Source: Rhizobium etli 8C-3 (lineage in GTDB: Bacteria > Pseudomonadota > Alphaproteobacteria > Rhizobiales > Rhizobiaceae). Taken from it: a stretch of 64,000 nt of DNA. The translations under genes were made by a program, and so were the position numbers. The notes under the pieces are model-generated. The model was not told where the DNA came from and did no database searches. It saw only the letters and a program-made list of their open reading frames with translations. The first letter of the stretch is position 1. Each line of letters opens with the position of its first letter. Shown here piece after piece: positions 3,009 through 32,344 of this stretch. The stretch spans positions 124,001 through 188,000 of the forward strand of contig NZ_CP017243.1 of NCBI RefSeq assembly GCF_001908375.1. Direction: 5' to 3'.

Positions 3009-3037
3009 TTGACAGATTGTCTGATATACGTTAATGC
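3009..3037 (+). promoter_or_regulatory. Promoter with cluster operator, orphan copy
   Basis: TTGACA (3009-3014), a 17-base spacer and TAATGC (3032-3037). The spacer carries the shared half-palindrome CAGATTGTCTG (3013-3023). The next downstream gene is almost 900 bases away, but a strong hairpin lies about 100 bases downstream. Confidence 0.6.
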
Positions 3038-3138
3038 TATTCCTGATCAAAGGCAAGGCAGCATCAGGGAAATCTGCCACGGTTCTAGTGGAGTTCCCGC
3101 ACGGCAAATCAATCTAAAGATGCCTCCCAAGGCGAGGG

Positions 3139-3170
3139 GTGACGGGCTGCTTTCGATCGCAGCCCGTCAC
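3139..3170 (+). terminator. Perfect 12-bp inverted repeat, terminator-like hairpin
   Basis: GTGACGGGCTGC (3139-3150), loop TTTCGATC, GCAGCCCGTCAC (3159-3170). No T run follows, so it is either a non-canonical terminator or a structured RNA element made from the promoter at 3009. Confidence 0.5.
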
Positions 3171-3759
3171 GGGAAGGGTGGGAGTGCTATGAGTGGGAGA
3201 GAACCTACGCCAACCGACCTTGGAGGCCGTTGAGTCGACACGGAGAAAAATGATTGTGCTGTAGGATGGCCCCACGATTTCGCCACACGCTGGTCCTCTT
3301 ATCCTGCGCATCAGCATACTTCGGTTATGACGTATAAGAGAGGCACGCTCCAGGCTCAACACTCGGAGACGCAAAGACGTCGACGAGTTCTTTTGGCCTA
3401 CTAAGCGAGGCGGTCGCGGCAAATATCAATGCGTAAGCCGCGCCTCGTCGCATTGAGTTGACTTTGCGCTCTTCTTAGCGGGTACGGACTCCGGGCGTCT
3501 GATTGGGCAAAAGAAGAGCTTAAGGACGAAACCTGATGATGGTCAAACAGCTTGTGCTGCCATAGGCGTGCTGTTGTCTGTGCCGCGCGAACGCGAAAAG
3601 CGCGATCAAATCGGAACGTGGCGGCGAGAGAAGACTAACAGGAAAGACCACATCAAACTCAACCGGGTGTCGGAATACCGATGCTTACGGCATTGCGTGC
3701 ATGAGGCCTCAAAATGACGCCGGTCTCGACCTGTGTCCGCCGAAAATCGCAAAAAGGAA

Positions 3760-3788
3760 TTGACAGATTGTCGGACAAAAATTTTACT
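3760..3788 (+). promoter_or_regulatory. Promoter with cluster operator upstream of the SDR-like gene
   Basis: TTGACA (3760-3765), 17-base spacer, TTTACT (3783-3788). The spacer contains CAGATTGTCGGACAA, which includes the perfect dyad TTGTCGGACAA (3768-3778). This matches the TNGTNNNACNA pattern known for FadR-type GntR operators. Confidence 0.7.
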
Positions 3789-3913
3789 ATATCGCCCGCG
3801 CATTGCTTGTTCGCGGGAGACGCAGCGACGGACCGGGAGTTATAAGTGCTAAACTTGGCCAAAAATGCACAAATTGTCGACCTTCTTAATCTGCCGGAAG
3901 CGGCGACCGGCGC

Positions 3914-4663
3914 GTGATACAAGCGTCTCTGACTCACAAGGCGTGTCATACTCCATCGACCGAGGTACTGGTTGAACGTGACAGTGACGCCAACATTTCT
4001 CCTGGGGAAAAAGTCTGTGTCTTGATAGGCGCGTCAAATCCTGTTGGTCTTTGTTTGGCGCGCTCATTTATAGAAAAAGGCTATCGGGTCGCCGTAGGCG
4101 ACGCCAATCCCGCCGACTTCGCCTCCCTGGCTGAAGGCCAGGGAAACAATTTTTTACCGGTCAAAGTCAACCCGAACAGAGACGTTTACGTCAACTCAAT
4201 GGCTGACCAGGTGTATTTGCGCTGGAGACGGGTCGACGTTCTGGTGAACATAGTTTTCCGCAGAAATGAAACAACCCAAACTGTAACGGGATCGCTATCC
4301 AGCGCGAATCTGGGGCTTGATGCCGTATCCAATCTAATCAGAGTTACAGGTGCCTTTAGCTCTCGACTTCAGGGCGCGGAGCTTGCCGTAGTGGACGTCG
4401 CATGGTTCGAAGAGACGACCTCGCTGGAAGCAGAAGCCGTCCTTCAAGCGGCGTTGCGCACTACTACCTCCGCAATTGCTAGGCAATATTTCGGTTCCGG
4501 GCTGAGGATAAATGCTGTACACGCCAGCGATGTGAACTCTACGTCTTCAAGCGAAAATGACGTGCTTCGAACAGTGATCCACGCCGTGCAATTCCTGGCG
4601 AATTCGGAACTGTCCGGAAAGCTGACAGGGAACGTGCTGGAGATCGATCCTCGGTGCAGATAG
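3914..4663 (+). CDS. SDR-fold protein lacking the catalytic Tyr/Lys (degenerate short-chain dehydrogenase)
   Basis: 249 residues from a GTG start. The Rossmann fold is recognisable: a nucleotide-binding stretch GASNPVGLCLARSFIEKGYR near residue 38, RWRRVDVLVNI where SDRs have the NNAG strand, GLRINAVHASDV and a final GNVLEIDPR strand. Aligned by hand from the RxNAV motif, the positions of the catalytic Tyr and Lys (YxxxK) carry Glu and Gln, and the NNAG motif is lost, so normal oxidoreductase activity is doubtful. It could be a binding or regulatory protein or a decaying gene. It sits behind its own copy of the cluster operator. The start is weakly supported. Confidence 0.65.
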   Translation: MIQASLTHKACHTPSTEVLVERDSDANISPGEKVCVLIGASNPVGLCLARSFIEKGYRVAVGDANPADFASLAEGQGNNFLPVKVNPNRDVYVNSMADQVYLRWRRVDVLVNIVFRRNETTQTVTGSLSSANLGLDAVSNLIRVTGAFSSRLQGAELAVVDVAWFEETTSLEAEAVLQAALRTTTSAIARQYFGSGLRINAVHASDVNSTSSSENDVLRTVIHAVQFLANSELSGKLTGNVLEIDPRCR

Positions 4664-4874
4664 ATCCACTCCCACGTTCTGATCCGGCAAATCTGCAGGT
4701 ATTAACCTTCCGTTAAGTTTCTCGAAAGACGCAATGGGCAAGAGGTCAAATCCTAACAACACGTAAAAAAGTTTCGATTGTTTTAGTGAAACTCTTATCC
4801 ATGTTCGTTCAGGCTCAAACATTACTATTCCAAAAGCGAGGCCCCAGCACCGTTTGAGCCCTTTGGAGGTAAGT

Positions 4875-8772: not shown

Positions 8773-9203
8773 AGATCGCATGCGGGGTCTGTGTGGAATG
8801 CGGTGCCTTCATGATCGGCTCTCGTGCAAGGTAGGCTGCGCTAAGGAATGACAGTTCAAATTGGGAAATGCCCGGGTCGCCTCAGGAGACATGAGACAAG
8901 CGATCCGGTTCCAACGAACATATTTGCTCCGCGGTAGCATTCTTCCTCCGGCCCTCCTCTCGCCAAACGGGACAACATACTCATTGCGCCTTTCGATCTA
9001 CGTGCTGCCGCGAAGGTTGTTGCTTCGAATGTGAAAGCAAAGTTCATTTCCGACCGCACTATCCGGCTCAGGCCGACGCGCGGTTCGACGCCTTACTGAC
9101 ATATCTGCATCAATTTGTTGCTCGAATGATTTGGGTGGCGTTCCCGGAATTCCTGATCGGATGGATGATGCATCTGTCTTGGCCCTCGGTAAGGAGCTTC
9201 ACG
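8773..9203 (+). other. Intergenic region, possible gene debris
   Basis: No convincing gene. A stretch near 8960-9105 reads as a plausible but unidentified peptide (containing ILIAPFDLRAAAKVVASN) that runs into a stop and has no start signal, so it may be a remnant. Confidence 0.4.
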
Positions 9204-11762
9204 ATGAATTCGACTTTACAACCGCTTTGGCAACGCTCCTTTTTTCAGAAAAGGCGCAATCGCCGGAGAGACGAAGCGCTGCATCATGATACCTCAGCCG
9301 ACCGAGGAGCGCTGCTTGAAGCATTGATCGGCGTGTTGCCCCTCCCAATTTTCTTCAAAGATCTGCACGGTCGCTATGTCGGTTGCAACAAGGTTTTCGA
9401 AGATCTCCTCGGTCGCTCGCGCGACGAGATCATCGGGAATACAGATTTTGATCTCAGTTCAACGCAACTGGCGGAAATTTATTCTATTGAAGAGAAAGGC
9501 CTTCTTGAAAGGGGTGGAGCCCAAGTCTCCGAGCGTAAGATCGCTCTCGCAAACGGCGCCATCCTGGATGTTGTCTGCAACAAGGCAGTTTTCAGAGGTC
9601 ACGACGACGAGCCCGCGGGTCTGATTGGCGTTATCATCGACATAACCGAACACAAGTTGGCGGAGCAGGAACTCAAAAACGCTCTCGAACTAGCCCAAGG
9701 GATCGTCACCGCTATTCCAGACGTTCTGTTTGAGGTCGACGAGGATGGGCGATATCTTCAGGTCTGGACCAGAAATCCCGAACTACTAGCCCAGCAGCGG
9801 GAAATGCTACTGGGTAGGACGGTCGACCAAGTTCTTGCGCCTGATCAAGCGGCTATTGCAATGGAGGCGCTTCGAACTGCAAGCAGTGAAGGAGTTGCCT
9901 ACGGTCGATGCATTAGCGTATCCTTGCCAAACGGCGAGACCCGATGGTTCGAGTTGTCGGTGGCTAGACGACCAAGCGCCGATCCTGACGCCGCCACCAC
10001 GCTCCTGGCATTTTCGCGTGATGTCACGGAACGAAGGCAGGCGGAAGACGCCATCAACTCCGTGCGGACGCAATTGCTAAGTGTGCTGCAAACCATTCCT
10101 GACATGGTTTGGGTAAAGAATGTCGATGGCGTACACCTGTTGTGCAATCATGCATTTGAGCGGCTGACCGGGAAATCGGAGGCGGAGGTCGTTGGAAAAA
10201 CGGACCTTGAATTGTTCGGGGCTGAGAGAGCTCACATTTCCGGAAAATCTGATGAGGCCACGATCGAAGCCGGTGGCATACTTATCGACGAGAATTGGGT
10301 GGTTTCCCCGGAGAACGGTCAGTCCATTCTTCTCGAAACACGTAAACTTGCGGTCCTCGGCGCCGGGGGAGAGGTTACAGGAGTCCTCGGGGTCTCTCGC
10401 GATGTCACGGAACTGAACGCCTCGCGGGAAAAAATCAGGCAAATGGCCTTTTACGATCCGGTGACTTCTTTGCCGAACCGCTTGCTGTTTAACGAGCGAT
10501 TGCAAAAGGTCGTCAGTGACGCGTCGTCTCAACGTCGGCGGACAGGGGTAATGCTGATTGACATCGACCATTTCAAAGTCGTGAACGATACGATGGGTCA
10601 CCCTGTGGGTGATCAACTACTCTGCCAGGTCGCTACCCGGCTTAAGAAATCTGTCCGCGATCTCGACACGGTTGCGCGTCTCGGCGGCGACGAGTTCGCG
10701 ATTCTGTTGCCGGAAATCCAGACAACCGACGATCTCGATTGGGTTGCGTGCTCGATCCTCGAGAGATTCAAGGAATCTTTCCTATTGGATGGCAAGGAAG
10801 TCTACGTGTCATGCAGTGTAGGCATCGCGATCTCGCCCGACGACAGCACAGATGTCAACGATCTGGTGAAATACGCCGACTCTGCGATGTATCTTGCCAA
10901 ACGCTCGGGGAGAAACAGTTTTCGCTTTTATTCGAAGGATTTGACTGTGGGCGTGGAGGAGCGGATGCAGTTGGAATCTGAATTGCGCCGCGCTATCGAG
11001 CGCGAAGAATTGGAGCTGCACTACCAGCCCAAGGTGCTTCTGGACAGCGGCGTAATGATAGGATCGGAAGCGTTGTTGAGATGGCCTCATCCCGAGATGG
11101 GCATGATTCCGCCGGTTCGATTCATTCCGGTCGCTGAGGATACCGGGCTGATCGTTGAACTCGGGCGATGGGTGCTGCGTGAAGCGTGCAAGACGGCGAA
11201 GGAGCTGAACGCCGATTGCCACCACCTGCACAAGATTGCAGTCAACCTTTCGGGTAAGCAATTCCAATGCTCACGGTTGGTAAACGAGATCGCTGCAATC
11301 CTCGGTGAAACCGGTTGCCGCGCGGAATGGATCGAAATCGAAATCACGGAGAGTCTGCTTCTCGATCGGAAGGGCGAGACCCTGCAGACGCTTCTTAAGC
11401 TGCGTCAAATGGGATTTTCGATTGCTATCGATGATTTTGGCACCGGTTACTCGGCGCTCAACTATCTAGCCCGCTTCCCGATCGACACGCTGAAGATCGA
11501 TCGGTCATTCATAAATAGCTCGGACAAAAGGAACGAAGAATTGGTCAAAGCGATTCTGTCCATTGCACAATGTCTTGGGCAGGACGTGGTGGCGGAAGGT
11601 GTTGAGACCGCCGAGCAGGCAGCATTTCTCGCAGCGAACGGATGCGGTTCGGCGCAAGGCTTCTTTTACAGCAAGGCCCTGCCGAAGATGGAATTGATCG
11701 CTCTTTGGGTGCGCGCGTCCGCCACCGGCTTCGTTTCAGATCGTTACGCCGCTTCGCGATGA
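9204..11762 (+). CDS. PAS-PAS-PAS-GGDEF-EAL cyclic-di-GMP signalling protein
   Basis: 852 residues from the ATG at 9204, selected over upstream starts because AAGGAG (9191-9196) precedes it at good spacing. There are three PAS domains (about residues 40-150, 160-275 and 285-400), then a diguanylate cyclase with intact GGDEF near residue 493 and an RxxD inhibitory site (RDLD) five residues before it. A phosphodiesterase domain follows with EALLRW near 620, DDFGTGYS near 743 and KIDRSF. Both catalytic sets look complete, so it could make or degrade c-di-GMP depending on PAS input. No transmembrane segment is seen. It is a full-length paralogue of the protein at 41097-43895. Confidence 0.92.
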   Translation: MNSTLQPLWQRSFFQKRRNRRRDEALHHDTSADRGALLEALIGVLPLPIFFKDLHGRYVGCNKVFEDLLGRSRDEIIGNTDFDLSSTQLAEIYSIEEKGLLERGGAQVSERKIALANGAILDVVCNKAVFRGHDDEPAGLIGVIIDITEHKLAEQELKNALELAQGIVTAIPDVLFEVDEDGRYLQVWTRNPELLAQQREMLLGRTVDQVLAPDQAAIAMEALRTASSEGVAYGRCISVSLPNGETRWFELSVARRPSADPDAATTLLAFSRDVTERRQAEDAINSVRTQLLSVLQTIPDMVWVKNVDGVHLLCNHAFERLTGKSEAEVVGKTDLELFGAERAHISGKSDEATIEAGGILIDENWVVSPENGQSILLETRKLAVLGAGGEVTGVLGVSRDVTELNASREKIRQMAFYDPVTSLPNRLLFNERLQKVVSDASSQRRRTGVMLIDIDHFKVVNDTMGHPVGDQLLCQVATRLKKSVRDLDTVARLGGDEFAILLPEIQTTDDLDWVACSILERFKESFLLDGKEVYVSCSVGIAISPDDSTDVNDLVKYADSAMYLAKRSGRNSFRFYSKDLTVGVEERMQLESELRRAIEREELELHYQPKVLLDSGVMIGSEALLRWPHPEMGMIPPVRFIPVAEDTGLIVELGRWVLREACKTAKELNADCHHLHKIAVNLSGKQFQCSRLVNEIAAILGETGCRAEWIEIEITESLLLDRKGETLQTLLKLRQMGFSIAIDDFGTGYSALNYLARFPIDTLKIDRSFINSSDKRNEELVKAILSIAQCLGQDVVAEGVETAEQAAFLAANGCGSAQGFFYSKALPKMELIALWVRASATGFVSDRYAASR

Positions 11763-12041: not shown

Positions 12042-12070
12042 TTGACAGATTATCATACAATCTGCCAAAA
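12042..12070 (+). promoter_or_regulatory. Promoter with cluster operator upstream of the MBL-ADH-MBL operon
   Basis: TTGACA (12042-12047) runs into CAGATTATCATACAATCTG (12046-12064), whose outer six bases are a perfect inverted repeat (CAGATT/AATCTG). This is one of the two most symmetrical copies and helped define the 19-base consensus. The -10 region is A-rich and poor. Confidence 0.7.
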
Positions 12071-12102
12071 ATGTCGCCAAGCACCTGATGGGAGGAAAAT
12101 CA

Positions 12103-12999
12103 GTGTCTCTTAGTATGCATCACCTGGCCAAGCTTCCGTATTTTTATCCGTTCGAATTTGGCGATGGAAAAATCACGGTACTGTCCGACGGGCCGTTAGA
12201 GCTAGGAGATCCTCGCCTGAACTTCTTGGGGGTAGAGCCACGCACGGTCAGCCTGATGCTAGAGGACAATTTCCTGCCAACGAACAAAGTTGTACTCGAG
12301 CAAAACGTGCCGCTTGTTGAGATAAATGGAAGAACAATTCTATTTGATACCGGGATGGGGTCTTCCAAAGCTTTCGGGCCCACCACAGGTCGACTCCTAG
12401 CCAGCCTGAGAGAGGCAGGTCGAGATCCGACGGAGATCGATGCGGTGGTTCTGTCGCACGCCCATATCGATCATATCGGCGGTCTGTGCGATGCCAATGG
12501 AAGGTTAAATTTCCCGAACGCCGACATCTTCATCAGTGAGCGAGACTTCACGGACTGGACGGACGGGTCGTCGATCGATTCTTCATTTCAATTTCAAATC
12601 GATAACGCTCGGCGAAACCTGCTTCCCCACAAGGATCGGACCTTCTTTTTCAAAGACGGCGAGGAGTTCTTGCCGGGCGTTCACGCGATTTCGGCCCCCG
12701 GCCACACGCTCGGTCATCATTGTTTTATGCTGCAGTCGGGAAACGATCGCCTCTGTTTTCTCGGCGACCTTACGCACCATCATATCCTGTTGATGGAGAG
12801 GCCGATGATGGAATTCCGATACGACACGGACCCGAAGCTGTCAGCTAGATCCCGCACGCGCGTGCTTGATATGCTGGCGACAGATCGCATTGCGGTAATG
12901 TCCTATCACTTCGCATGGCCAGGTGCCGGGCATGTGGTGCGAAACGGAGACGGATTCCGCTATATCCCCTCTCCAATGCAGTTGCTTGCACATCGATAA
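12103..12999 (+). CDS. Metallo-beta-lactamase-fold hydrolase 1
   Basis: 298 residues from a GTG at 12103, preferred because GGAGGA (12091-12096) is correctly spaced for it; an ATG at 12088 overlaps that ribosome-binding site. The zinc-binding motif SHAHIDHIGG is at about residue 118, with later metal ligands in APGHTLGHHC and LGDLTHHH and a final SYHFAWPG. The fold fits lactonases, thioesterase-like and other hydrolytic enzymes. It is the first gene of an operon with an alcohol dehydrogenase and a second MBL enzyme, spaced by 12 bases from the next gene. A lactone or ester substrate is likely but not demonstrated. Confidence 0.87.
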   Translation: MSLSMHHLAKLPYFYPFEFGDGKITVLSDGPLELGDPRLNFLGVEPRTVSLMLEDNFLPTNKVVLEQNVPLVEINGRTILFDTGMGSSKAFGPTTGRLLASLREAGRDPTEIDAVVLSHAHIDHIGGLCDANGRLNFPNADIFISERDFTDWTDGSSIDSSFQFQIDNARRNLLPHKDRTFFFKDGEEFLPGVHAISAPGHTLGHHCFMLQSGNDRLCFLGDLTHHHILLMERPMMEFRYDTDPKLSARSRTRVLDMLATDRIAVMSYHFAWPGAGHVVRNGDGFRYIPSPMQLLAHR

Positions 13000-13011
13000 G
13001 GAATTTCAAAG

Positions 13012-14139
13012 ATGCAGATGCGTTCGGTAATCCTCAGGGAGTCGGGTCTGCCGAAGCCCTATTCAAATTCGAAACCTCTTAAGATTGAGCTTGTGGAACT
13101 GACGCCGCCTGGCCCCATGGAGGTGTTGGTCAAGATCAAGGCTGCCGGTGTCTGCCACTCTGACCTGTCCGCAATCAATGGGGACAGACCGCGTCCGCTT
13201 CCAGTCGCTCTAGGCCATGAGGCATCTGGCGTCGTCGCAGCAATCGGACCGAGTGTCGAGAAGGTTGAGGTTGGTGACCATGTAGTCATGTCATTTCTGC
13301 CGGTTTGTGGCCATTGCTCATATTGCGCTGAAGGCCGCGCCAGCCTCTGCGAACCGGGCTACCAGGCCAATGCTGCAGGAACGCTTCTATCCGGCGGCAA
13401 GCACATCCGTTTGAGAGGATACGAAATTAACCACCATAGCGGCGTTTCTGCGTTTTCCGAATATGCTGTCGTGTCGGCGAGCTCGGTAGTCAAAGTGACC
13501 AAAGATATCGATTTGGCGACAGCTGCTCTCTTCGGCTGTGCCGTTATGACCGGCGTTGGAGCTGTGATGAACACGTGTGGGGTCCGCCCAGGCCGTAGTG
13601 TGGCGGTAATCGGGCTCGGCGGCGTAGGCCTTTCGGCGATACTTGGCGCTGTTGCGAGCGGTGCAAGCGATATCGTGGCGATCGACCTAATCCAAGCGAA
13701 GCTGGATCTTGCCAAGGAGCTGGGAGCGACGAAGACTTTTTTGGCCACCTCGCCGAATATTGTTGCCCAAGTAAAAGGCGCGACAAGCGGCGGGGTAGAC
13801 TACGCGATAGAGATGGCTGGATCCAAAAAGGCATTCGAGCTTGCATATGAGATTACCCGGCGCGGAGGGATGACCGCTACGGCCGGACTGGCCAGCGCAA
13901 ATTCCCGTTTCGAGGTTTCGCCCTTGCCGTTGGTCGGAGAGGAGAGAACGATCAAGGGCAGCTATATGGGTTCCTGCGTGCCATCGCGCGACATACCCCG
14001 CTATATCGACCTTTACCTCAAAGGTAAGCTGCCAGTGGACAAATTGCTGTCGAGCACTGGCCCCCTTGATGAGATCAATGAGGTTTTCGACCGTCTTGAC
14101 AGGGCCGAGATCAATCGACACCTAGTCTTGATGGACTGA
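13012..14139 (+). CDS. Zinc-dependent alcohol dehydrogenase (MDR family) 1
   Basis: 375 residues, the usual length. The catalytic zinc site appears as AAGVCHSDL and LGHEASGVV, and the structural zinc site as CGHCSYCAEGRASLC. The NAD(P)-binding Rossmann motif is IGLGGVGLSAILGAVASGA near residue 200, followed by an acidic residue at the strand end (VAIDL), which favours NAD. It would oxidise an alcohol or reduce an aldehyde of the cluster substrate. It lies between two MBL-fold hydrolase genes and overlaps the next by one base, so the three are likely translated together. Confidence 0.9.
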   Translation: MQMRSVILRESGLPKPYSNSKPLKIELVELTPPGPMEVLVKIKAAGVCHSDLSAINGDRPRPLPVALGHEASGVVAAIGPSVEKVEVGDHVVMSFLPVCGHCSYCAEGRASLCEPGYQANAAGTLLSGGKHIRLRGYEINHHSGVSAFSEYAVVSASSVVKVTKDIDLATAALFGCAVMTGVGAVMNTCGVRPGRSVAVIGLGGVGLSAILGAVASGASDIVAIDLIQAKLDLAKELGATKTFLATSPNIVAQVKGATSGGVDYAIEMAGSKKAFELAYEITRRGGMTATAGLASANSRFEVSPLPLVGEERTIKGSYMGSCVPSRDIPRYIDLYLKGKLPVDKLLSSTGPLDEINEVFDRLDRAEINRHLVLMD

Positions 14140-14933
14140 TGGCGGGGAGAATTCTCTTGAACGAGTGGACAGTGCTCGCCATCCATTACGGCACCGCGCA
14201 AAGACCAGTAAGTGACCTGATACTAGAGACGAATGACATTCATGATCGTCCATCACAAATCGACTACTTCGTGTGGCTGATCCGTCTCGAGGACCGATTA
14301 ATTCTTGTTGACACTGGTTTCGAAGCCGGAGAGGGCGCGGCCAGAGGGCGGACCCTCTTGATCCATCCGGTGGCAGCACTGAGCAGCCTTGGCATCAAAT
14401 CCAGCGAAATTACTGATGTCGTTGTGACACACCTGCACTACGATCACGCCGGAAACCTCCCGGCCTTTCCTAACGCCACTTTTCACATTCAGGATCGGGA
14501 GATGGCGTATGGAACGGGGCGGTGTATGTGCCATGAGCGAATGCGTCGGCCTTTTGCTACAGAAGGTGTCGTCGACGCGGTCCGGCTCGTTTTTCAGTCA
14601 CGGGTACGGTTCCATGATGGGGATGGGGAAATTGTTCCTGGATGCAGGGTGCATCTGGTTGGCGGTCACTCGAAAGGTTTGCAAGTTGTTACGGTGGCAA
14701 CAGGCGGCGCTTTGCTGGTTATCGCTTCCGACGCGCTTCATTTCCAGCACTATCTTGAAAATGACGGCGCGTTTCCCCTGTTTGCAGATTACCTAGAGGT
14801 CATCGAGGGTTACAACAAGCTCCGCGTCCTTGCCGGAGCAAACGGACTCATCATTCCGGGTCATGACCCTGAGGTGCTACAGAAATTTTCTCCCCTTGCG
14901 CCAGACCTCCAGTTCGCTAGAGTTCTCCTGTGA
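14139..14933 (+). CDS. Metallo-beta-lactamase-fold hydrolase 2, N-acyl homoserine lactonase-like
   Basis: 264 residues; the ATG overlaps the upstream stop (TGATG), indicating translational coupling. It has THLHYDHAGNL near residue 97, GGHSKGLQ, SDALHF and PGHDPEV, the arrangement seen in AttM/AiiA-type lactonases. Actual activity on acyl-homoserine lactones cannot be inferred from this; members also open other lactones such as gamma-butyrolactone. With the preceding dehydrogenase it resembles lactone-catabolic operons in which ring opening is followed by alcohol oxidation. Confidence 0.87.
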   Translation: MAGRILLNEWTVLAIHYGTAQRPVSDLILETNDIHDRPSQIDYFVWLIRLEDRLILVDTGFEAGEGAARGRTLLIHPVAALSSLGIKSSEITDVVVTHLHYDHAGNLPAFPNATFHIQDREMAYGTGRCMCHERMRRPFATEGVVDAVRLVFQSRVRFHDGDGEIVPGCRVHLVGGHSKGLQVVTVATGGALLVIASDALHFQHYLENDGAFPLFADYLEVIEGYNKLRVLAGANGLIIPGHDPEVLQKFSPLAPDLQFARVLL

Positions 14934-14968: not shown

Positions 14969-14985
14969 CAGACAATCGGGTTGTC
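14969..14985 (+). promoter_or_regulatory. Candidate autoregulatory operator of the GntR gene
   Basis: CAGACAATCGGGTTGTC contains the palindrome GACAA-TCGGG-TTGTC (14971-14985) and the same CAGACAATC half-site as the other operators, about 70 bases before the regulator's ATG. Confidence 0.55.
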
Positions 14986-15053: not shown

Positions 15054-15743
15054 ATGGGAACGATCGACCTCCAGATTAGACGTCAAAACGCCTCTCTTCG
15101 AATCCTTGTTGAGGATAAGCTCCGGCAGGCTATTTCAAGTGGCCGTTTCAAGCCCGGGCAGCGGCTGGTGGAGCGCGAGTTGTGCGAACTTATCGGGGTT
15201 GGCCGAACTTCAGTTCGCGAGGCGCTACGCCAGTTAGAAGCTGAAGGGCTTATTACTAGCTATCCGCATCGGGGGCCGGTTGTCAGCACTATCAGCTACG
15301 AGGAGGCTAGGCAGCTTTATAGTGTACGCGCGCTGCTTGAAAGCTTTGCCGGCCAGGAGTTCGCCGAGAACGGTTCGAATGAAGAGATCGTTGCTCTCCT
15401 CGAGACCGTGGAAGCGTTCGAAGCCGCAGCCAAGAGCGGTTCCGGAACGCGGATCATCGAAGCCAAGACCGCTTTTTACGATTGTTTGATGACCGGCAGC
15501 AAGAACGTGTTTGTGAAGCAAATGCTCACGTCGTTGCACAACCGGGTCACATTGTTGCGGATGACATCGATGACCCAGCCAGGGCGGCTGCAGAACAGCG
15601 TTTTCGAAATAAGAGAGATTGCGGCCGCTATTGCGTTGCGTGATGGCGACAGGGCAGCCGCGCTTTGCAAGCGCCATATCGAAATCGCGGCTAAGGTGGC
15701 GTTGGACTACTTGAGCAAGAACCCCGTCGAAACCTCCGAGTAG
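15054..15743 (+). CDS. GntR family regulator, FadR/FCD subfamily (probable regulator of the cluster)
   Basis: 229 residues. The N-terminal winged helix-turn-helix (about residues 15-80) has LRQAISSGRFKPGQRLVERE, LCELIGVGRTSVREALRQLE and GLITSYPHRGPVVS, typical of the subfamily. The C-terminal half is an all-helical FCD effector domain with RALLESFAGQ and a final HIEIAAKVALDY. FCD proteins usually bind small organic acids through a metal-bound His/Asp set and act as repressors. The gene sits in the middle of the catabolic cluster, has an operator-like palindrome in its own leader, and the repeated operators in this window fit the known GntR/FadR half-site pattern. That it is their ligand is inference. 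Confidence 0.9.
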   Translation: MGTIDLQIRRQNASLRILVEDKLRQAISSGRFKPGQRLVERELCELIGVGRTSVREALRQLEAEGLITSYPHRGPVVSTISYEEARQLYSVRALLESFAGQEFAENGSNEEIVALLETVEAFEAAAKSGSGTRIIEAKTAFYDCLMTGSKNVFVKQMLTSLHNRVTLLRMTSMTQPGRLQNSVFEIREIAAAIALRDGDRAAALCKRHIEIAAKVALDYLSKNPVETSE

Positions 15744-15776: not shown

Positions 15777-15805
15777 TTGACAGATTGTCTGAAAATCTGC
15801 TTACC
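15777..15805 (+). promoter_or_regulatory. Promoter with cluster operator upstream of the alpha/beta hydrolase
   Basis: TTGACA (15777-15782), 17-base spacer, CTTACC. The operator CAGATTGTCTGAAAATCTG (15781-15799) has only one mismatch between its two halves outside the centre, the best copy in the window. Confidence 0.75.
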
Positions 15806-19614: not shown

Positions 19615-19643
19615 AGAAGACATTTTAGCAGACAATCTGTCAA
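19615..19643 (-). promoter_or_regulatory. Promoter with cluster operator for the SDR gene
   Basis: On the minus strand TTGACA (19643-19638) leads into CAGATTGTCTGCTAAAATG (19639-19621). With the 17-base spacing used at the other sites the -10 would be TCTTCT. The -35 boxes of this and the divergent promoter are 14 bases apart. Confidence 0.65.
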
Positions 19644-19657
19644 TTGTGAAAATCCAG

Positions 19658-19686
19658 TTGACAGATTGTCTGCTGATCTGTTTATC
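19658..19686 (+). promoter_or_regulatory. Promoter with cluster operator for the flavin monooxygenase operon
   Basis: TTGACA (19658-19663), 17-base spacer, TTTATC (19681-19686). The operator CAGATTGTCTGCTGATCTG spans 19662-19680. Confidence 0.75.
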
Positions 19687-19720
19687 TAGGCTCGATCGAA
19701 TTTGGCCGTGGGAGGACAAT

Positions 19721-20230
19721 ATGGCCGATACCAGCACTGAGGCGCAGTTGACTTTTAAGGCAGCTATGCGTCGGTTCACATCAACCATCTGCTTGATCAC
19801 GACCGAACTCAACGGGGTCCGTCATGGCATGGCCGCCACCGCGGTCCAGTCGGTTACCGCGGACCCACCAACTGTTCTTGTCTGCATCAACCAATCGGCT
19901 TCGGTGAATCAGCCTTTGAAGATCTCCGGGAAGTTCGCCGTGAACATGCTGCATCTTTCACATGCCGATCTTGTGCCGCTGTTCAGTGGGCAATTGAAGG
20001 GTGAAGAGCGCTTTCATTACGGCGAGTGGCTGTCTCTCGACGGCATGCCGGTCCTGTCCGATGCGCAGGCGGCGTTTGTCTGCAAGCTAAAAGATGTCGT
20101 TCACGTTGGAACGCATGATGTTGTGCTCGGAGAAGTGCTCGAAGCACGGTTCATCGAGTCAATCGCGCCGCTTCTCTACGAAAACGGTCAACTCGTCAGG
20201 TCGTCGTCCATCAGTGGATCGGCCGCATAG
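19721..20230 (+). CDS. Flavin reductase (HpaC/RutF-like), NAD(P)H:FMN
   Basis: 169 residues from the ATG at 19721, preceded by GGAGGA. It has the flavin-reductase-like split barrel: FKAAMRRFTSTICLITT, GMAATAVQSVTADPPTVLVC, CINQSASVNQPLKISGKFAV and a C-terminal HVGTHDVVLGEV. Such proteins supply reduced FMN to two-component monooxygenases. The monooxygenase gene is two genes downstream in the same operon, so it is the likely partner, as RutF is for RutA. Confidence 0.9.
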   Translation: MADTSTEAQLTFKAAMRRFTSTICLITTELNGVRHGMAATAVQSVTADPPTVLVCINQSASVNQPLKISGKFAVNMLHLSHADLVPLFSGQLKGEERFHYGEWLSLDGMPVLSDAQAAFVCKLKDVVHVGTHDVVLGEVLEARFIESIAPLLYENGQLVRSSSISGSAA

Positions 20231-20293
20231 TAGGTGGCTTTAACCACCAATCACATCACTCATCGAAAGCCCAAGGGCGGCAAGGAGAAAAGC

Positions 20294-20710
20294 GTGAGCA
20301 ATATGGCACCCGCAAGAGAAATTCATGGACGTGAAGTCACAGAGCGCTTTGAGCGCGGACTAAAGACCCGGCGCGAAGTCTTGGGGGGGGGCTATGTTGA
20401 TGCGTCGGTCAGCAAAGCCACCGACTTCAATTGGCCGATGCAAACCCTCGTCACAGAATACTGCTGGGACGCGATTTGGAATCGGCCGGGCCTGGAGCGC
20501 AAGCAGCGCAGCATCCTCAATCTCGGGATGATTTCGGCCCTCAATCGTCCGCATGAGCTGAAACTGCATGTTCGCGGAGCAATCAACAACGGTCTTACCA
20601 AAGAGGAAATTCGGGAGGTTTTCCTCCAGGTTTCGATTTACTGCGGTGTTCCTGCGGCCATCGACAGCTTCCGCGTGGCAGCGGAAGTTTTCGACGAGAT
20701 GGGCATCTAG
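20294..20710 (+). CDS. Carboxymuconolactone decarboxylase family protein
   Basis: 138 residues from a GTG at 20294 with AAGGAG (20282-20287) upstream; this start is better than the upstream one in the same frame. The family signature is visible in NWPMQTLVTEYCWDAIWNRP, RSILNLGMISALNRPHELKL and VFLQVSIYCGVPAAIDSFR. The AhpD-type CxxC is absent; only single cysteines are present (EYCWD, IYCGV), so lactone/decarboxylase or structural roles are more likely than peroxidase activity. It sits between the flavin reductase and the monooxygenase. Confidence 0.88.
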   Translation: MSNMAPAREIHGREVTERFERGLKTRREVLGGGYVDASVSKATDFNWPMQTLVTEYCWDAIWNRPGLERKQRSILNLGMISALNRPHELKLHVRGAINNGLTKEEIREVFLQVSIYCGVPAAIDSFRVAAEVFDEMGI

Positions 20711-20770
20711 TTATTCAACGCATTTGAGTGGGCTGAGCATCATCCGTTGCCAGCCCGAGGAGGGACTACA

Positions 20771-21892
20771 GTGACCGCACAAGACGATTTCCGCGCTGCC
20801 GGAAACCCAATGTTCAATGATAACAAGCTCAAGCTCGGCGTATTTGGCACGAATTGCTCGAATGCATGCGCGATTACGCTCGCTGAGACAACGTTCGAAC
20901 CTACCTTCGACCACAACGTCGAGATTGCAAAGAAGCTTGAGGCAGCCGGTTGGGAATGCATGGTGCCGATTGCACGCTGGCGTGGTTTTGGCGGTCCTTC
21001 AAACTTCAATGGCGTGAACATGGATACGTTCACCTGGGCGGCCGCTCTCGCGGCGGTCACCACGAAGCTCCAGTTCTTCTCAACGACTCACATTCCGACG
21101 CTAAACCCGATTGTTGCAACCAAGATGGCGACAACAATCGATCACATCTCGAAGGGTCGATACGGCCTCAATCTCGTTACCGGCTGGTTCACTCCCGAAA
21201 TGGAAATGTTCGGAGTTCCTATGATGGAGCACGACACCCGCTATGAATACGCCACTGAATGGATGGATATCGTCGAGACGCTCTGGAAACGCAATGGCGT
21301 TACCTTCGAAGGCGAGTTCCTCAAAGTCAAAGACGCCTTCAGTGAACCCAAACCCTACAACAAGGCGGGTCGCCCGCTCCTGATCTGCGCCGGCGCCTCG
21401 GGCAAGGGACTGCATTTCACCGCCAAGTTCTGCGACTTCAACTTCGGCTTCATGCAAGACATGGAATCCGGCGCTGCCTGGGTCAAAAAGGTGAAGGACC
21501 TGGCGCGTACTGAATATAACCGTGATCTTGGCACATTCACAGCTTGCCCCGTTATCGTTCGCGAAACGGAGAAGGAAGCAAAGGAATACTACGACTACTA
21601 CGTCAACCAGAAGGGTGACTGGGAGGCATGCGAGAACATCTGTGAAGTTCTGCAGGTGCAATCTCAAAACCATTCTGCCGAAATGTATCAAAAATTCAAG
21701 GAACGCTTCGTCGCTGGCTGGGGTGGATACCCGATCGTCGGCAATCCAGAACAAGTCGCCGACAAGCTCGTGGATCTCAGCAATACAGGCGTCAACGGCG
21801 CCTTGCTGACAATGGTCGATTACAACGAGGAACTTCCCTTCTTTAACGACCGTGTCATGCCGCTGCTCAAGCAAGCCGGTCTGCGCAACTGA
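20771..21892 (+). CDS. Luciferase-like (LLM class) flavin-dependent monooxygenase, RutA-like
   Basis: 373 residues from a GTG at 20771 with GAGGAGGG just upstream. The TIM-barrel family is clear: LKLGVFGTNCSNAC, RWRGFGGPSNFNG, FTWAAALAAVTTKLQFFST, MATTIDHISKGRYGLNLVTG and ICAGASGKGLHFTAKFCDF. The SKGRYGLNLVTGW block and overall order resemble RutA, which cleaves the pyrimidine ring amide with a flavin peroxide, and also DszA/SfnG-type enzymes. FMNH2 would come from the reductase two genes upstream. The substrate is unknown. No other rut genes are present, so this is not the uracil pathway. Confidence 0.92.
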   Translation: MTAQDDFRAAGNPMFNDNKLKLGVFGTNCSNACAITLAETTFEPTFDHNVEIAKKLEAAGWECMVPIARWRGFGGPSNFNGVNMDTFTWAAALAAVTTKLQFFSTTHIPTLNPIVATKMATTIDHISKGRYGLNLVTGWFTPEMEMFGVPMMEHDTRYEYATEWMDIVETLWKRNGVTFEGEFLKVKDAFSEPKPYNKAGRPLLICAGASGKGLHFTAKFCDFNFGFMQDMESGAAWVKKVKDLARTEYNRDLGTFTACPVIVRETEKEAKEYYDYYVNQKGDWEACENICEVLQVQSQNHSAEMYQKFKERFVAGWGGYPIVGNPEQVADKLVDLSNTGVNGALLTMVDYNEELPFFNDRVMPLLKQAGLRN

Positions 21893-21900
21893 ACCAGTCC

Positions 21901-21948
21901 TCGGGACGGCGATTGCCGTCCCGACACGAACTCTGCCAGATTCTGGCA
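21901..21948 (+). terminator. Tandem hairpins between monooxygenase and binding-protein genes
   Basis: TCGGGACGGC-GATT-GCCGTCCCGA (21901-21924) is a perfect 10-bp stem; CTGCCAG-ATT-CTGGCAG (21932-21948) is a second stem followed by GATTTTCG. They begin 8 bases after the stop codon. They may terminate part of the transcripts or protect the ends of a processed mRNA. Confidence 0.65.
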
Positions 21949-22015
21949 GGATTTTCGCGGCTGGCGGCCAAAGGGGCCGGCGGTTGAGCGGAACCACAAG
22001 GGGAGGAGGCCCTGA

Positions 22016-23185
22016 ATGCTGAAGAAAATCGTTGCAGCGCTTTTTACGCTGTCGAGCCTTTATCACATGAACGGCGTGGCGAAGGCTGACGGCCTCGATT
22101 CGTTGCCGCCGGACCAAAAGGCGCTTTACGAGAATATCGATCCCGCCATTCCGCTCGGGGGGACGGTGTACAAAGATTTTGTTCCAAAACGTCCACCGCC
22201 GTGGAAAATTGGTTATGCATCCACATATGCCGGTAATACCTGGCGCGCGAACATCCTGGACGAATTCACCAACGTATTGCTTCCGAGATATAAGGAAGCA
22301 GGCCTAGTCTCCGATCTAATCGTCACGCAGTCTGACCTCAAAGACGCTGTCCAAATCCAGCAGATGCGGCAGATGGTTGACGACGGTGTTGATGCGATCG
22401 TCATTTGCTGCTCGAACATTACCGCACTTAACAAGACCATAGAGTATGCTCATTCGAAAGGCGTGCCAGTCTTCTCAGTCTCGGGCTATGTCACATCACC
22501 CTACGCAATCAATGCCACAGAGAATAACACCGACGGTGGCTACAAGGCTGCTGAATGGCTTGCCAAGGAAATCGGTGAAAAAGGCAACGTCCTGATGGTA
22601 TCGGGCATCCCCGGTTTCGCATCATCGGACAGCTTCGACATCGGCGCGAAGAACGCGTTCGATAAATTCCCCGGTATCAAAATTGTAGGCACGATAGCTG
22701 GCAAATGGACCGACCAGGTCGCCCAGGTTGAGGTTCAGAAGTTTCTTGCCACCAATCTTGCTGAGGTTAATGGCATTCTCGTTCAGTCCGCTTCAGAAAA
22801 CGGTGTCGTGAACGCAGTACAGCAATCCGGCCGCGACATGATGCCTATCGTGCTCGGGGGTGAGGCTTCGGCAGCCTGCTACTGGCGTAAGAACCCTGAT
22901 TTCATAAGCAAGAGCTTCCATTTCTGGCCGCCGCGGTCTGATGCCCGCCTTGTGTGGGACGTCATGATGCGAACGCTCGAAGGCCAGGGACCAAAGATCC
23001 AGTCGATTCTTCGTCCTGCGCTTCCTTACACCATTGATGACGTGAAGGAAGTGCTGAAGGAAGATTGCGATCCCAATTCCACGGATTGGATCGAGCCGAA
23101 GAACAACGGCTGGTGGCCTGCAGACGTCGCTGCAAACTACTTCGAACGTCCTGAAGATCCGTTAGCTTGGCGGCCGAAGAAGTAA
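22016..23185 (+). CDS. Periplasmic sugar-type ABC substrate-binding protein (TorT-like), copy 2
   Basis: 389 residues with signal peptide (ALFTLSSLYHMNGVAKA) and a strong ribosome-binding site (GGGGAGGAGG). It is a paralogue of the protein at 7573-8772, sharing PPWKIGYASTYAGNTWRA, VDDGVDAIVICCSNITALNK and WIEPKNNGWWPADVAANYF. It lies in the monooxygenase operon, bracketed by hairpins on both sides, which would allow a higher or separate level of expression, as is common for binding proteins. The likely membrane partner is the importer at 30803-34290, although that operon has its own third binding protein. Confidence 0.88.
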   Translation: MLKKIVAALFTLSSLYHMNGVAKADGLDSLPPDQKALYENIDPAIPLGGTVYKDFVPKRPPPWKIGYASTYAGNTWRANILDEFTNVLLPRYKEAGLVSDLIVTQSDLKDAVQIQQMRQMVDDGVDAIVICCSNITALNKTIEYAHSKGVPVFSVSGYVTSPYAINATENNTDGGYKAAEWLAKEIGEKGNVLMVSGIPGFASSDSFDIGAKNAFDKFPGIKIVGTIAGKWTDQVAQVEVQKFLATNLAEVNGILVQSASENGVVNAVQQSGRDMMPIVLGGEASAACYWRKNPDFISKSFHFWPPRSDARLVWDVMMRTLEGQGPKIQSILRPALPYTIDDVKEVLKEDCDPNSTDWIEPKNNGWWPADVAANYFERPEDPLAWRPKK

Positions 23186-23214
23186 TGAATGTTCTCCGGA
23201 AGGAGACCTCCCAG

Positions 23215-23249
23215 CCTCCCGCGTCGGTTTCTATAATCGGCGCGGGAGG
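23215..23249 (+). promoter_or_regulatory. Stable intercistronic hairpin
   Basis: CCTCCCGCG (23215-23223) and CGCGGGAGG (23241-23249) form a perfect 9-bp GC-rich stem with a 17-base loop, 30 bases after the binding-protein stop. No T run follows. Its position argues that translation of the aminotransferase begins after it. Confidence 0.55.
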
Positions 23250-23274
23250 TATCTGCGATTTGATTGGAAATAGT

Positions 23275-24480
23275 GTGCTGGACTTTCACAGAATTCAACG
23301 TTTGCCGCCTTATGTTTTCGAACAGGTCAACCGTTTGAAAGCAAGCGCGCGAGCGGGCGGCGCCGATATCATTGATCTCGGCATGGGAAACCCCGACCTT
23401 CCCACTCCTCAGTCGATCGTCGACAAGCTGTGCGAGGTCGTGCAGGATCCGCGCACCCACCGCTATTCCTCCTCCAAGGGCATTCCGGGGCTGCGCCGTG
23501 CCCAGGCCGCCTATTATGCCCGCCGTTTCGGTGTCAAGCTCAACCCGGATACCCAGGTGGTCGCCACCTTGGGCTCCAAGGAAGGCTTCGCCAACATGGC
23601 GCAGGCGATCACCGCGCCCGGCGACGTGATCCTCTGCCCGAACCCGACCTATCCGATCCACGCCTTCGGTTTCCTGATGGCGGGCGGCGTGATCCGCTCG
23701 ATGTCGGTTGAGCCGGATGAGAGCTTTTTCCCGCCGCTGGAGCGGGCGGTCCGGCATTCGATCCCGAAGCCGTTGGCGCTGATCCTCAACTATCCGTCGA
23801 ACCCGACGGCCCTCGTCGCGACGCTCGATTTCTATAAGGACGTCGTCGCCTTCGCCAAGAAGCATGACATCATCGTGCTTTCCGACCTTGCCTATTCCGA
23901 GATCTACTTCGACGGCGCTCCGCCGCCATCGGTTCTCGAAGTGCCGGGTGCAATGGATGTGACCGTCGAATTCACCTCGATGTCGAAGACCTTTTCCATG
24001 CCCGGCTGGCGCATGGGCTTTGCCGTCGGCAACGAGCGGCTGATCGCGGCGCTCACCCGCGTCAAGTCCTATCTCGACTACGGCGCCTTCACGCCGATCC
24101 AGGTGGCCGCGACCCATGCGCTGAACGGCGACGGTTCCGACATTGCGGAGGTTCGCAACGTCTACAAGCGTCGCCGCGACGTCATGGTCGAAAGCTTCGG
24201 GAAGGCCGGCTTCGACGTGCCGCCGCCGGCTGCCACCATGTTCGCCTGGGCAAAGATCCCGGAAAAGTTCCGTCATCTCGGTTCGCTGGAGTTTTCCAAG
24301 CTGCTGGTCGAGAAGGCCGACGTCGCCGTTGCACCGGGTATCGGCTTCGGCGAAATGGGCGACGACTACGTCCGTCTGGCGCTCGTCGAGAACGAACACC
24401 GCATCCGCCAGGCTGCGCGCAACATCAAACGCTGGCTTAGCGGCGACGAGAAATTTGAAATCAACGTAATGAATCAGTGA
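23275..24480 (+). CDS. PLP-dependent class I/II aminotransferase (AlaC/DapL-like, core-gene paralogue)
   Basis: 401 residues if started at the GTG at 23275, the length usual for this family; an in-frame ATG at 23185 would add 30 unlikely residues and run through the hairpin. Conserved blocks include DLGMGNPDLPTP, NYPSNPTA, LSDLAYSEIYFDG and the PLP lysine in SMSKTFSMPGWRMG. The protein is extremely like the housekeeping aminotransferase I know from rhizobial chromosomes (LPPYVFEQVNRLKASARA). Its codons are strongly GC-ending, unlike the more mixed usage of its neighbours, which suggests a recently recruited copy. It would transaminate an alpha-keto acid; its exact substrate here is unknown. 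Confidence 0.9.
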   Translation: MLDFHRIQRLPPYVFEQVNRLKASARAGGADIIDLGMGNPDLPTPQSIVDKLCEVVQDPRTHRYSSSKGIPGLRRAQAAYYARRFGVKLNPDTQVVATLGSKEGFANMAQAITAPGDVILCPNPTYPIHAFGFLMAGGVIRSMSVEPDESFFPPLERAVRHSIPKPLALILNYPSNPTALVATLDFYKDVVAFAKKHDIIVLSDLAYSEIYFDGAPPPSVLEVPGAMDVTVEFTSMSKTFSMPGWRMGFAVGNERLIAALTRVKSYLDYGAFTPIQVAATHALNGDGSDIAEVRNVYKRRRDVMVESFGKAGFDVPPPAATMFAWAKIPEKFRHLGSLEFSKLLVEKADVAVAPGIGFGEMGDDYVRLALVENEHRIRQAARNIKRWLSGDEKFEINVMNQ

Positions 24481-24491
24481 AAGGATACCCG

Positions 24492-24890
24492 ATGCCAATC
24501 TTCGGATCATGCCAATGCAAAGCGGTAACGTACCAGGTTCAGGAAATTGATGGACCCATGTGGAATTGCTTCTGTCAAACATGCCGGAAGTCACACGCCG
24601 CTGATCACAATACCGCTGCGAAGGTGAAAAGCGAGCACTTCAAGATCCTTACAGGCCAAGATACGCTTCATAGCTTCGAATCGACGCCTGGAAAGCTGCG
24701 GTGGTTTTGTTCGGTATGTGGCTCGCACGTTTATGCGGAGCGGCCGGCCAGCCCGGAGCTCAAAGTCGTTAGAGCCGGCACGTTCGATACCGATCCTGGA
24801 AGTGTGCCGATGTCAAACGTATGGGTATCGCATGCGGAACCTTGGCTCGCCCATGATCCATCGAAGGCAAGCTCACCAGAGTTCCCGTAA
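24492..24890 (+). CDS. GFA family (glutathione-dependent formaldehyde-activating-like) zinc protein
   Basis: 132 residues from the ATG at 24492 with AAAGGA upstream. The zinc-binding cysteines of the GFA fold are all present: GSCQCKAV, NCFCQTCRKS and FCSVCGSHVY. Family members include the formaldehyde-activating enzyme Gfa and many proteins of unknown function, and centromere-like relatives. It is the last gene of the monooxygenase operon, 11 bases after the aminotransferase stop. A role in removing an aldehyde by-product is possible but only inferred. Confidence 0.87.
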   Translation: MPIFGSCQCKAVTYQVQEIDGPMWNCFCQTCRKSHAADHNTAAKVKSEHFKILTGQDTLHSFESTPGKLRWFCSVCGSHVYAERPASPELKVVRAGTFDTDPGSVPMSNVWVSHAEPWLAHDPSKASSPEFP

Positions 24891-25208: not shown

Positions 25209-25237
25209 TTGTAAGATTGTCTTATGCGAGAATGTTG
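25209..25237 (+). promoter_or_regulatory. Promoter with diverged cluster operator upstream of FMN reductase-ribBA
   Basis: TTGTAA (25209-25214), 17-base spacer, ATGTTG. The operator core is the palindrome AAGATTGTCTT (25213-25223), same centre and position as the others. The rest of 24891-25208 holds no convincing gene. Confidence 0.55.
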
Positions 25238-25250
25238 GGAGTCCTGTGAC

Positions 25251-25769: not shown

Positions 25770-25785
25770 TAAGGAGGAGGATTCC

Positions 25786-27066: not shown

Positions 27067-27302
27067 CGGAGCCGCCCTCGCCACTTACCTGCCGGTGATT
27101 GTAGGGGGCCGCCTTTGACCGGCAGAGTCCTAGAGCTTTTGCGTGGGCCCTGCCAGCACATCATTCGTGCAGGCCTATCGGAGTGATGTGGCCCGCGATT
27201 GCATCGAAAGCAGCGTTCGACCATATCTCGTCTTGAGCACGGCTGTTCCGACGGATCGCATTTAATCGCGGTCCGTCTTGTCTTTCGAAAAGTCTCGCAA
27301 AA

Positions 27303-28409: not shown

Positions 28410-28447
28410 GTAACTGTTCCTCCAAGGCTCACAACGCAATTCGCGCG

Positions 28448-28476
28448 AACGTACTCATCGTCAGACAATCAGTCAA
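28448..28476 (-). promoter_or_regulatory. Promoter with cluster operator for alcohol dehydrogenase 2
   Basis: On the minus strand TTGACT (28476-28471), 17-base spacer, TACGTT (28453-28448). The spacer holds CTGATTGTCTGACGATGAG. The remaining gap up to 28773 shows no gene. Confidence 0.7.
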
Positions 28477-28773
28477 TAATTACTCTATTAAATTAGATCA
28501 GTTCAACCGGAGCAGGGCTGCATTTTTGCAAAGTCACGAGTGAACGCTGATTTGAAGTGATCAAAGGGTTCCGATGCATGTTCGAAAGGGAGCATGCGTC
28601 TTGTCCCGCTTTGGGCTGAAAGATCGGCAGACGAAAATTTAGTAGCAACGTGTGAGGCGAGCCGGATGGCGTCGCTTGCCGACGTCGAGCCGGTTCTGAA
28701 GGCTATCGACAGCTTCGAGACACCGGTATTGCCAAGTTCAACCGACTACAAACGATGCTACTGCCAGCCAGGC

Positions 28774-29403
28774 TTAACAGACAGTACCAACCAGGACGTT
28801 AGTCTTCTCGATGATCGAGAGGTCCGACGCAATCCGGTATACAGTTGGCGCGGCGGTCGGTGACTCAATAGCGAGCGTATCCTGGATCGTGAGGCGTTCG
28901 ATGCCCTGCTTTAGTGACCTGATCGTATTCCCGTGGGCCACCACAAGAACCGATTTCCCTCTCAACAAGGGGGGGAACGCTTCGCTTATCAAAAAGGGCA
29001 GAACCCTCGCGCTTATGTCCCGTATGCTTTCTCCCCCAGGTGGTGGAGTGCTGTACGAGCGGCGCCAAACCTGGACAACATCCTGGCCCCACCGCTCACG
29101 TGCCACGTTCTTGTTGATGCCGGTGAGCTGTCCGTAGTCGCGTTCGTTCAACTCGGTTCTCCTGATTGGCTCCAGCAGATCGCCGTTGGTTTCGTTCAAA
29201 ATCGCTCTGCAAGTGTCGACTGTGCGCAAGAGGGCAGAGCTAAACGCAATATCGAACGAGATGCCGAGGTTCGCGAGCAGTGAGCCGGCTCGCCTGCTCT
29301 CAGACCAGCCCTCCTGTGTGAGCGGCACGTCGCTCGTACCCGTGAACTCCCCGCGCGCGTTCCCTTCGCTTTGGCCATGCCGGACAATCACCAGAGTGGA
29401 CAT
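28774..29403 (-). CDS. Histidine phosphatase superfamily, GpmA-like phosphoglycerate mutase paralogue
   Basis: 209 residues; GGGAGGG precedes the ATG. It carries the phospho-acceptor motif VIVRHGQSEGN, FTGTSDVPLTQEG, NERDYGQLTG, WRRSYSTPPPGGES and the second catalytic His in VVAHGNTIRSL, so it is built like 2,3-bisphosphoglycerate-dependent phosphoglycerate mutase. A glycolytic copy would normally be chromosomal; this one is controlled by the cluster operator, so it may act on a phosphorylated cluster intermediate instead. Confidence 0.88.
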   Translation of the reverse strand: MSTLVIVRHGQSEGNARGEFTGTSDVPLTQEGWSESRRAGSLLANLGISFDIAFSSALLRTVDTCRAILNETNGDLLEPIRRTELNERDYGQLTGINKNVARERWGQDVVQVWRRSYSTPPPGGESIRDISARVLPFLISEAFPPLLRGKSVLVVAHGNTIRSLKQGIERLTIQDTLAIESPTAAPTVYRIASDLSIIEKTNVLVGTVC

Positions 29404-29436
29404 TCATAACCCTCCCATCGATTTAGCGAACACGAA

Positions 29437-29465
29437 TATTGTCGCACTATCGGACAATCCGTCAA
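29437..29465 (-). promoter_or_regulatory. Promoter with cluster operator for the phosphoglycerate-mutase-like gene
   Basis: On the minus strand TTGACG (29465-29460), 17-base spacer, ACAATA (29442-29437); the spacer holds CGGATTGTCCGATAGTGCG. It is back-to-back with the promoter at 29530. Confidence 0.65.
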
Positions 29466-29529
29466 GTGCGACTATGTGCAAGTGAAAACAAAACGATGTC
29501 GAAAAAACAAACGTCGAAGTTTATATTTA

Positions 29530-29558
29530 TTGACAGATTGTCTGATAGCTCATACCAA
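29530..29558 (+). promoter_or_regulatory. Promoter with cluster operator for the ABC importer operon
   Basis: TTGACA (29530-29535), 17-base spacer, TACCAA (29553-29558); operator CAGATTGTCTGATAGCTCA (29534-29552). Confidence 0.72.
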
Positions 29559-32332: not shown

Positions 32333-32344
32333 GGAGGATAACTT

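Follow-up and report, generated by a model that had tools for sequence, protein, structure and literature searches.

Which protein reads the promoter element that recurs along a plasmid-borne gene cluster of Rhizobium etli 8C-3, and to what signal does it answer? The window considered here is the whole stretch of 64,000 nucleotides that was analysed (G000:C3:124001-188000, contig NZ_CP017243.1, in a genome of 7.3 Mb and 4 contigs). In an initial annotation, ten of its promoters were described as sharing one composite element, which was taken to unite a 26-kb flavin-monooxygenase cluster under a single GntR regulator. One of these promoters belongs to the teu operon, whose transporter has been cited since 1998 as a nodulation-competitiveness factor induced by bean exudate (via passages of PMC3557214 and PMC4125696). 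On balance, we regard it as probable that the element serves as operator for a teu regulon on the plasmid, that two paralogous FadR-type repressors (GntR1 and GntR2) share it, and that an exudate-derived ligand would release both; binding, repression, ligand, and cross-regulation are what we infer from the comparisons below.

A composite element concentrated in one plasmid stretch

All ten sites (seven on the plus and three on the minus strand) were found where the initial annotation had placed them. Each consists of a TTGACA-like hexamer directly followed by GATTGTC, which is exact in nine of them and reads GATTATC in site 12042 (window positions as in Table 1). For all sites except site 3009, a plausible start codon follows at a distance of 42-154 nucleotides, the start codons having been chosen by us with the CIAT 652 annotation and the open reading frames as a guide. 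Three more sites lie to the left of the window (C3:111149, 111357, and 112364), and the 26-kb extent gives way to one of 42 kb, from C3:111149 to 153545.

The genome-wide search bears out the expected concentration. Allowing up to three mismatches, the 16-mer TTGACAGATTGTCTGA matches the genome 41 times (5, 4, 6, and 26 matches with 0, 1, 2, and 3 mismatches, respectively), as compared to 9 matches for a reversed-pattern control, and 5, 4, 3, and 2 of these fall into C3:111-154 kb, that is, into 0.6 % of the genome. All nine matches with at most one mismatch in the 7.3 Mb are thus located in one 42-kb plasmid stretch, and about 0.001-0.002 exact matches per genome are expected from base composition. 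Likewise, a 19-mer consensus gave five matches with up to three mismatches in the window (two sites being counted on both strands) vs 0.04 expected. The 27 of the 41 matches that lie elsewhere mostly have three mismatches; eight of them were examined, and five were rejected as targets, as they lie inside open frames of 90 codons or more (C4:838311, C4:1371625, C4:223140, C4:497560, and C3:6942). Some 48 kb to the left of the cluster, a two-mismatch site (C3:62659-62674; L058 1060-1075) stands 305 bp ahead of a glycoside hydrolase family 3 (GH3) frame, and in L005 and L007 the same variant has chemotaxis-receptor genes on one side and GH3 genes on the other; the C3 site represents a possible further target.

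The identical geometry that had been claimed for the ten promoters holds for the -35 hexamer and the adjoining half-site, but not for the -10 region, in which several sites have weak hexamers. A similar division applies to the proposed FadR-type core. For this subfamily, the operator pattern is given as TKGT-N3-ACMA in passages of PMC4494728, and the left box T(G/T)GT is present at 9/10 window sites, whereas the right box AC(A/C)A occurs at only two of the ten. The version TTGT-CTG-ACAA fits the pattern, the second position of the right box being T more often than C. The right arm is retained in relatives, with ATAA being commoner than ACAA among 47 sites hand-picked from matches with at most three mismatches in L005-L009, L051, L053, and L055; second readings of one palindrome and matches in chemotaxis or similar coding sequence (e. 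g., window 40097, L006 41648, and L007 36759) were left out, as was L004, which is nearly identical to the window. The column consensus of these sites is TTGACAGATTGTCTGATAATCTG, followed by T-rich sequence, and the symmetric unit is CAGATTGTC-T-GA(T/C)AATCTG. Its outer left TTGA, which also serves as -35, is much better conserved than the mirror-image bases on the right, and relatives conserve the right arm better than the window does. Mean arm symmetry amounts to 6.2/9 in 34 sites vs 2.2 for random right arms, a value that is biased upward by two of the nine right-arm columns lying in the selecting 16-mer.

Two GntR/FCD paralogues beside the element

The assignment of the element to a GntR/FCD regulator finds strong comparative support in the co-occurrence of the 16-mer with regulator homologues (threshold E<=1e-60). 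Among 148 Rhizobium genomes, the exact 16-mer and a GntR homologue are each found in 33, and these 33 are identical; in the family sample, both occur in the same 7 of 394 genomes; and in the order sample (297 genomes), the 16-mer is present in 11 and the regulator in 10, with nine in common. In the shared order-sample genomes beyond the genus, GntR is 55-63 % identical, and in G701 regulator and site are located on separate contigs. Because the counts ignore relatedness and linkage on one mobile cluster, the other-family genomes carry most weight in this argument. In those with a 54-63 % identical GntR, sites precede a module of dehydrogenase/hydrolase/carboxymuconolactone-decarboxylase-like (CMD) genes or GntR itself; more precisely, the operator stands ahead of a 3-hydroxyisobutyrate-dehydrogenase-like gene, or of a GntR gene preceding that gene, mostly together with hydrolase and CMD genes. 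The GntR-only genome G577 has a three-mismatch site ahead of the matching dehydrogenase gene. Since other-family operators head this module, a flavin monooxygenase does not define the unit, and the label of a flavin-monooxygenase cluster is not supported; in the window, the unit moreover includes the teu exudate-uptake operon.

GntR1, which is encoded inside the window, combines an N-terminal GntR winged helix (71.4 bits, cut-off 27) with a C-terminal FCD domain (94.6 bits, cut-off 24.3), the domain arrangement of the FadR subfamily. Its best NCBIfam match is PhnR of Burkholderia type (TIGR03338), but the score of 127.3 bits does not reach the curated cut-off (271.5), and the neighbours scanned contain no recognisable phosphonate gene. 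Aligned to 7xp0, GntR1 has Lys/Tyr and Ile/Arg at what we take to be the FCD metal-ligand positions (Asp/His and His), and its sensing pocket may do without metal binding.

The assumption of a single regulator is not supported. A paralogue, GntR2 (C3:110453-111115), is encoded on the same plasmid 28 kb upstream, beyond the window, is 73 % identical to GntR1, and has its own site. Two GntR copies are present in 30 and four in 3 of the 33 motif-bearing genus genomes, and an exact site starts 17-51 bp beyond the match end in 69 of the 72 copies (exceptions in G406, G448, and G446), with GntR1 having it 34 bp beyond its stop; as in other FadR-subfamily systems, the operator thus adjoins the regulator gene. 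Between GntR1 and its own GntR2, identity amounts to 82 % over the DNA-binding residues 8-80 and to 69 % over the FCD residues 85-222, and the recognition segment GVGRTSVREALRQLEAEGLI is identical in both. In a tree of 22 GntR proteins, the GntR2 proteins of L002, L008, L009, and L053 form a supported clade (100/98). As 9/19 inner branches of this tree are open and long branches meet, we offer no date for the duplication. The Agrobacterium tumefaciens plasmid pAtA74a_b, which carries the dehydrogenase and teu blocks and no monooxygenase gene at E 1e-60, has one copy found, of GntR2 type, and its sites precede teuB, alcohol-dehydrogenase, and dehydrogenase genes; therefore, GntR2 is a candidate regulator of teu.

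An element GACAA-N5-TTGTC had been reported for the leader of the regulator gene, and it is indeed present and conserved, but its everted half-sites beside the regulator's -35 form another arrangement than the target palindrome. GACAATCGGGTTGTC is exact in four of five GntR1 leaders, that of L006 differing at the last base, and CAGACAATC occurs in 4/4 leaders of the GntR2 clade; in L002, the element abuts what we read as a promoter, TTGAAA-N17-CATATA. The leaders of L051 and L055 lack the element. Because the leader element abuts the -35/-10 of the regulator gene, autoregulation of GntR is likely.

The teu operon and competing explanations

An exact site (29530) heads the teuBAC1C2 operon, which was mapped onto the window via an alignment offset, with gene names from the CIAT 652 record, and the operator also stands ahead of teuB homologues in L005, L008, L009, and L053. 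Passages of PMC3557214 describe teu on pRtrCIAT899a as inducible by exudate of bean and of Macroptilium and as a requirement for nodulation competitiveness; passages of PMC4125696 locate it on the symbiotic plasmid of both CFN42 and CIAT 652, and those of PMC8581550 report that in R. phaseoli exposed to bean exudate, ABC genes like those of Rosenblueth 1998 are raised. An 18-kb query from the window matched 178 plasmid records, 36 of which contain at least 80 % of it; the best place had at least 99 % identity in 33 records, and the 20 records listed stem chiefly from bean-isolate Rhizobium.

In the mechanism that we propose, GntR1 and GntR2, having similar DNA-binding domains, would both bind the symmetric unit given above, and the bound dimers would occupy the spacer between -35 and -10 and thereby exclude RNA polymerase. 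Judged from the position of the sites, repression is a plausible mode of action. Without ligand, some ten promoters spread over 42 kb or more would be shut off; the repressors would be released by an exudate-borne bean compound or by one of its breakdown products, and the common operators would cause the uptake and catabolism blocks to be switched on together, with the half-site beside the regulators' own -35 providing for autoregulation. As to the substrate, a glycoside is our guess, because of the sugar-type transporters and the GH3 gene with its related site.

The regulator family, the type of operator, and the teu genes all belong to known kinds. Like the FadR-subfamily regulons treated in passages of PMC4494728, the present system has GntR and FCD domains, the TKGT-N3 left spacing, and a regulator gene beside catabolic targets; it differs in its weak right box (usually ATAA in relatives), in an operator that overlaps the -35 arm, and in the two or four regulator copies per motif-bearing genus genome. 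A precedent for paired regulators is provided by GntR1 and GntR2 of Corynebacterium glutamicum, paralogous GntR-type repressors that are functionally redundant on one regulon, with an effect in the double deletion only (passages of PMC2230225). The two paralogues discussed here have the same recognition segment and a site beside each copy, and they may likewise act on the same operators; that pair serves a gluconate regulon in another phylum, and here the sensing domains differ more than the DNA-binding domains. With the teu genes of R. tropici, the window has teuBAC1C2 in common, here with an exact site; no regulator, operator, or inducing compound is named for them in the passages on teu in PMC3557214, PMC4125696, and PMC5968715, and GntR was looked for without success in PMC8581550, PMC4125696, and PMC7449395. 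We regard the absence of a published teu regulator as weakly supported. The link between operator, regulator, and teu, the second regulator, and the cross-family spread of the pair were not found in searches of open-licence papers. With the operator defined and two repressors as candidates, the questions of teu regulator and inducer become directly testable, and repressor release from the operator could be used to fractionate bean exudate for the active compound. Moreover, this is a natural case of two paralogous repressors retained beside one operator type on many plasmids.

Several readings share the two proteins and the element and divide the roles differently. GntR1 alone might control all sites while GntR2 has another role; its gene belongs to the window cluster, is followed by an exact site shortly after the stop, and has a conserved element in its leader, but genes of GntR2 type, too, are immediately followed by exact sites and encode the same recognition segment, and pAtA74a_b has sites at teu and other genes with only a GntR2-type copy found, which makes this rather unlikely. 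Conversely, GntR2 might be the main teu regulator, each block answering solely to its own paralogue, as the presence of the GntR2 type with the dehydrogenase and teu blocks of pAtA74a_b, where the monooxygenase gene was not found, would suggest; no block-specific site difference is visible by eye, and we likewise deem this scenario unlikely. Somewhat more conceivable, though still doubtful, is a two-input gate for bean exudate, in which the DNA-binding halves stay alike and the sensing halves diverge, so that the transport and catabolic blocks, each having a regulator copy of its own, would answer jointly to two different molecules (for example, an exudate compound and a pathway intermediate), perhaps through heterodimers.

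Other explanations depart further from a pair of shared repressors. If the paired GntR proteins bound as activators, or if the effector were unrelated to bean exudate, the leader half-site upstream of -35 and the little plasmid signal in the RNA-seq listing of PMC8581550 would be accommodated; target sites between -35 and -10 occupy a usual place for a repressor, however, and the scenario strikes us as highly improbable. The same low credence goes to another protein reading the element, such as the AraC-type regulators encoded beside the cluster at 1723-2718 and 37396-38367: at E 1e-20, neither was matched in the stretches taken from five clusters with sites (L005, L008, L009, G328 (L051-L054), and G089 (L055)), of which L008 has another, unmatched AraC gene and G089 is a 6.3-kb contig only, and both were rejected as owners of the sites. 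Least credible is that the element is just a strong promoter module common to these genes, with no regulator of its own. This would explain why TTGACA and the left half are best conserved, but the right arm is retained in relatives, with the (upwardly biased) symmetry described above, and the presence of the element follows that of the regulator from family to family.

Two paralogous repressors on one operator thus remain the reading that we prefer, and a number of observations weigh against it besides the poor right box of the window sites. In the RNA-seq study PMC8581550, the symbiotic plasmid accounts for only 7 % of the 176 genes that are higher in bean than in maize exudate, and the examples given include many nod genes, so that a joint rise of some 30 plasmid genes cannot be seen there. 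Two matches with three mismatches outside open frames of at least 90 codons (C4:873195 and C1:3771060) are unexplained, and it is because of these and the 7 % result that our confidence is not higher. Linkage on one mobile cluster confounds the co-occurrence, and many genus plasmids are near-identical. The motif-only genomes G537 and G623 have a merely 39-40 % identical GntR 0.7 kb away, next to different neighbour genes; as there are many GntR genes per genome, this proximity may be due to chance. Homologues of ~46-48 % identity (Azospirillum, Paraburkholderia, and Rhizobium sp. L51/94) have no site with at most three mismatches within 3 kb. Finally, site 3009 is followed by the next site 751 bp on, with no recognisable gene between them. 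A lost gene in this gap was rejected: of the 36 plasmid records that match, 15 were listed, and none of these is annotated with a feature there. An IS66 element separates the counterparts of sites 3009 and 3760 in CFN42.

Features of the window and further observations

Table 1. Operator sites and genes of the cluster, in window coordinates.
Position	Strand	Feature	Basis
3009..3031	+	operator, exact 16-mer, no recognisable gene after it	
3760..3782	+	operator, 1 mismatch, ahead of short-chain dehydrogenase-like gene (3914-4663)	
12042..12064	+	operator, near-palindromic, ahead of metallo-hydrolase gene; also read on the minus strand from 12068	
12088..14933	+	metallo-beta-lactamase-fold hydrolase, Zn alcohol dehydrogenase, second metallo-hydrolase	Pfam
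14971..14985	+	everted half-site element GACAATCGGGTTGTC in GntR1 leader, adjoining TTGTCC-N17-GTATAT	
15054..15743	+	GntR1, GntR/FCD regulator	domain match
15777..15799	+	operator, exact 16-mer, best two-sided copy, ahead of alpha/beta hydrolase (15873-17102)	
19621..19643	-	operator, 1 mismatch, ahead of minus-strand short-chain dehydrogenase	
19658..19680	+	operator, 1 mismatch, ahead of flavin reductase gene	
19721..24890	+	flavin reductase, CMD-family protein, luciferase-like monooxygenase, ABC binding protein, aminotransferase, GFA-family protein	
25209..25231	+	operator, weak (3 mismatches), ahead of FMN reductase and RibBA genes	
28454..28476	-	operator, 1 mismatch, ahead of Zn alcohol dehydrogenase	
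29443..29465	-	operator, 2 mismatches, ahead of phosphoglycerate-mutase-like gene	
29530..29552	+	operator, exact 16-mer, ahead of teuB	
29659..34290	+	teuB, teuA, teuC1, teuC2 (sugar-type ABC transporter operon)	CIAT 652 names

A flavin mononucleotide (FMN) riboswitch ahead of the flavin genes was rejected, since the Rfam scan gave only a match to the alphaproteobacterial small RNA family ar15 (112.2 bits; window 61576-61687, minus strand). Mutator-type transposase sequence, apparently broken, extends over overlapping frames (17157-18335) in the interval from the alpha/beta hydrolase to the short-chain dehydrogenase. The cluster is flanked by chemotaxis receptors and by two PAS/GGDEF/EAL-type proteins (9126-11762 and 41064-43895), which show 61 % identity along most of their sequence.

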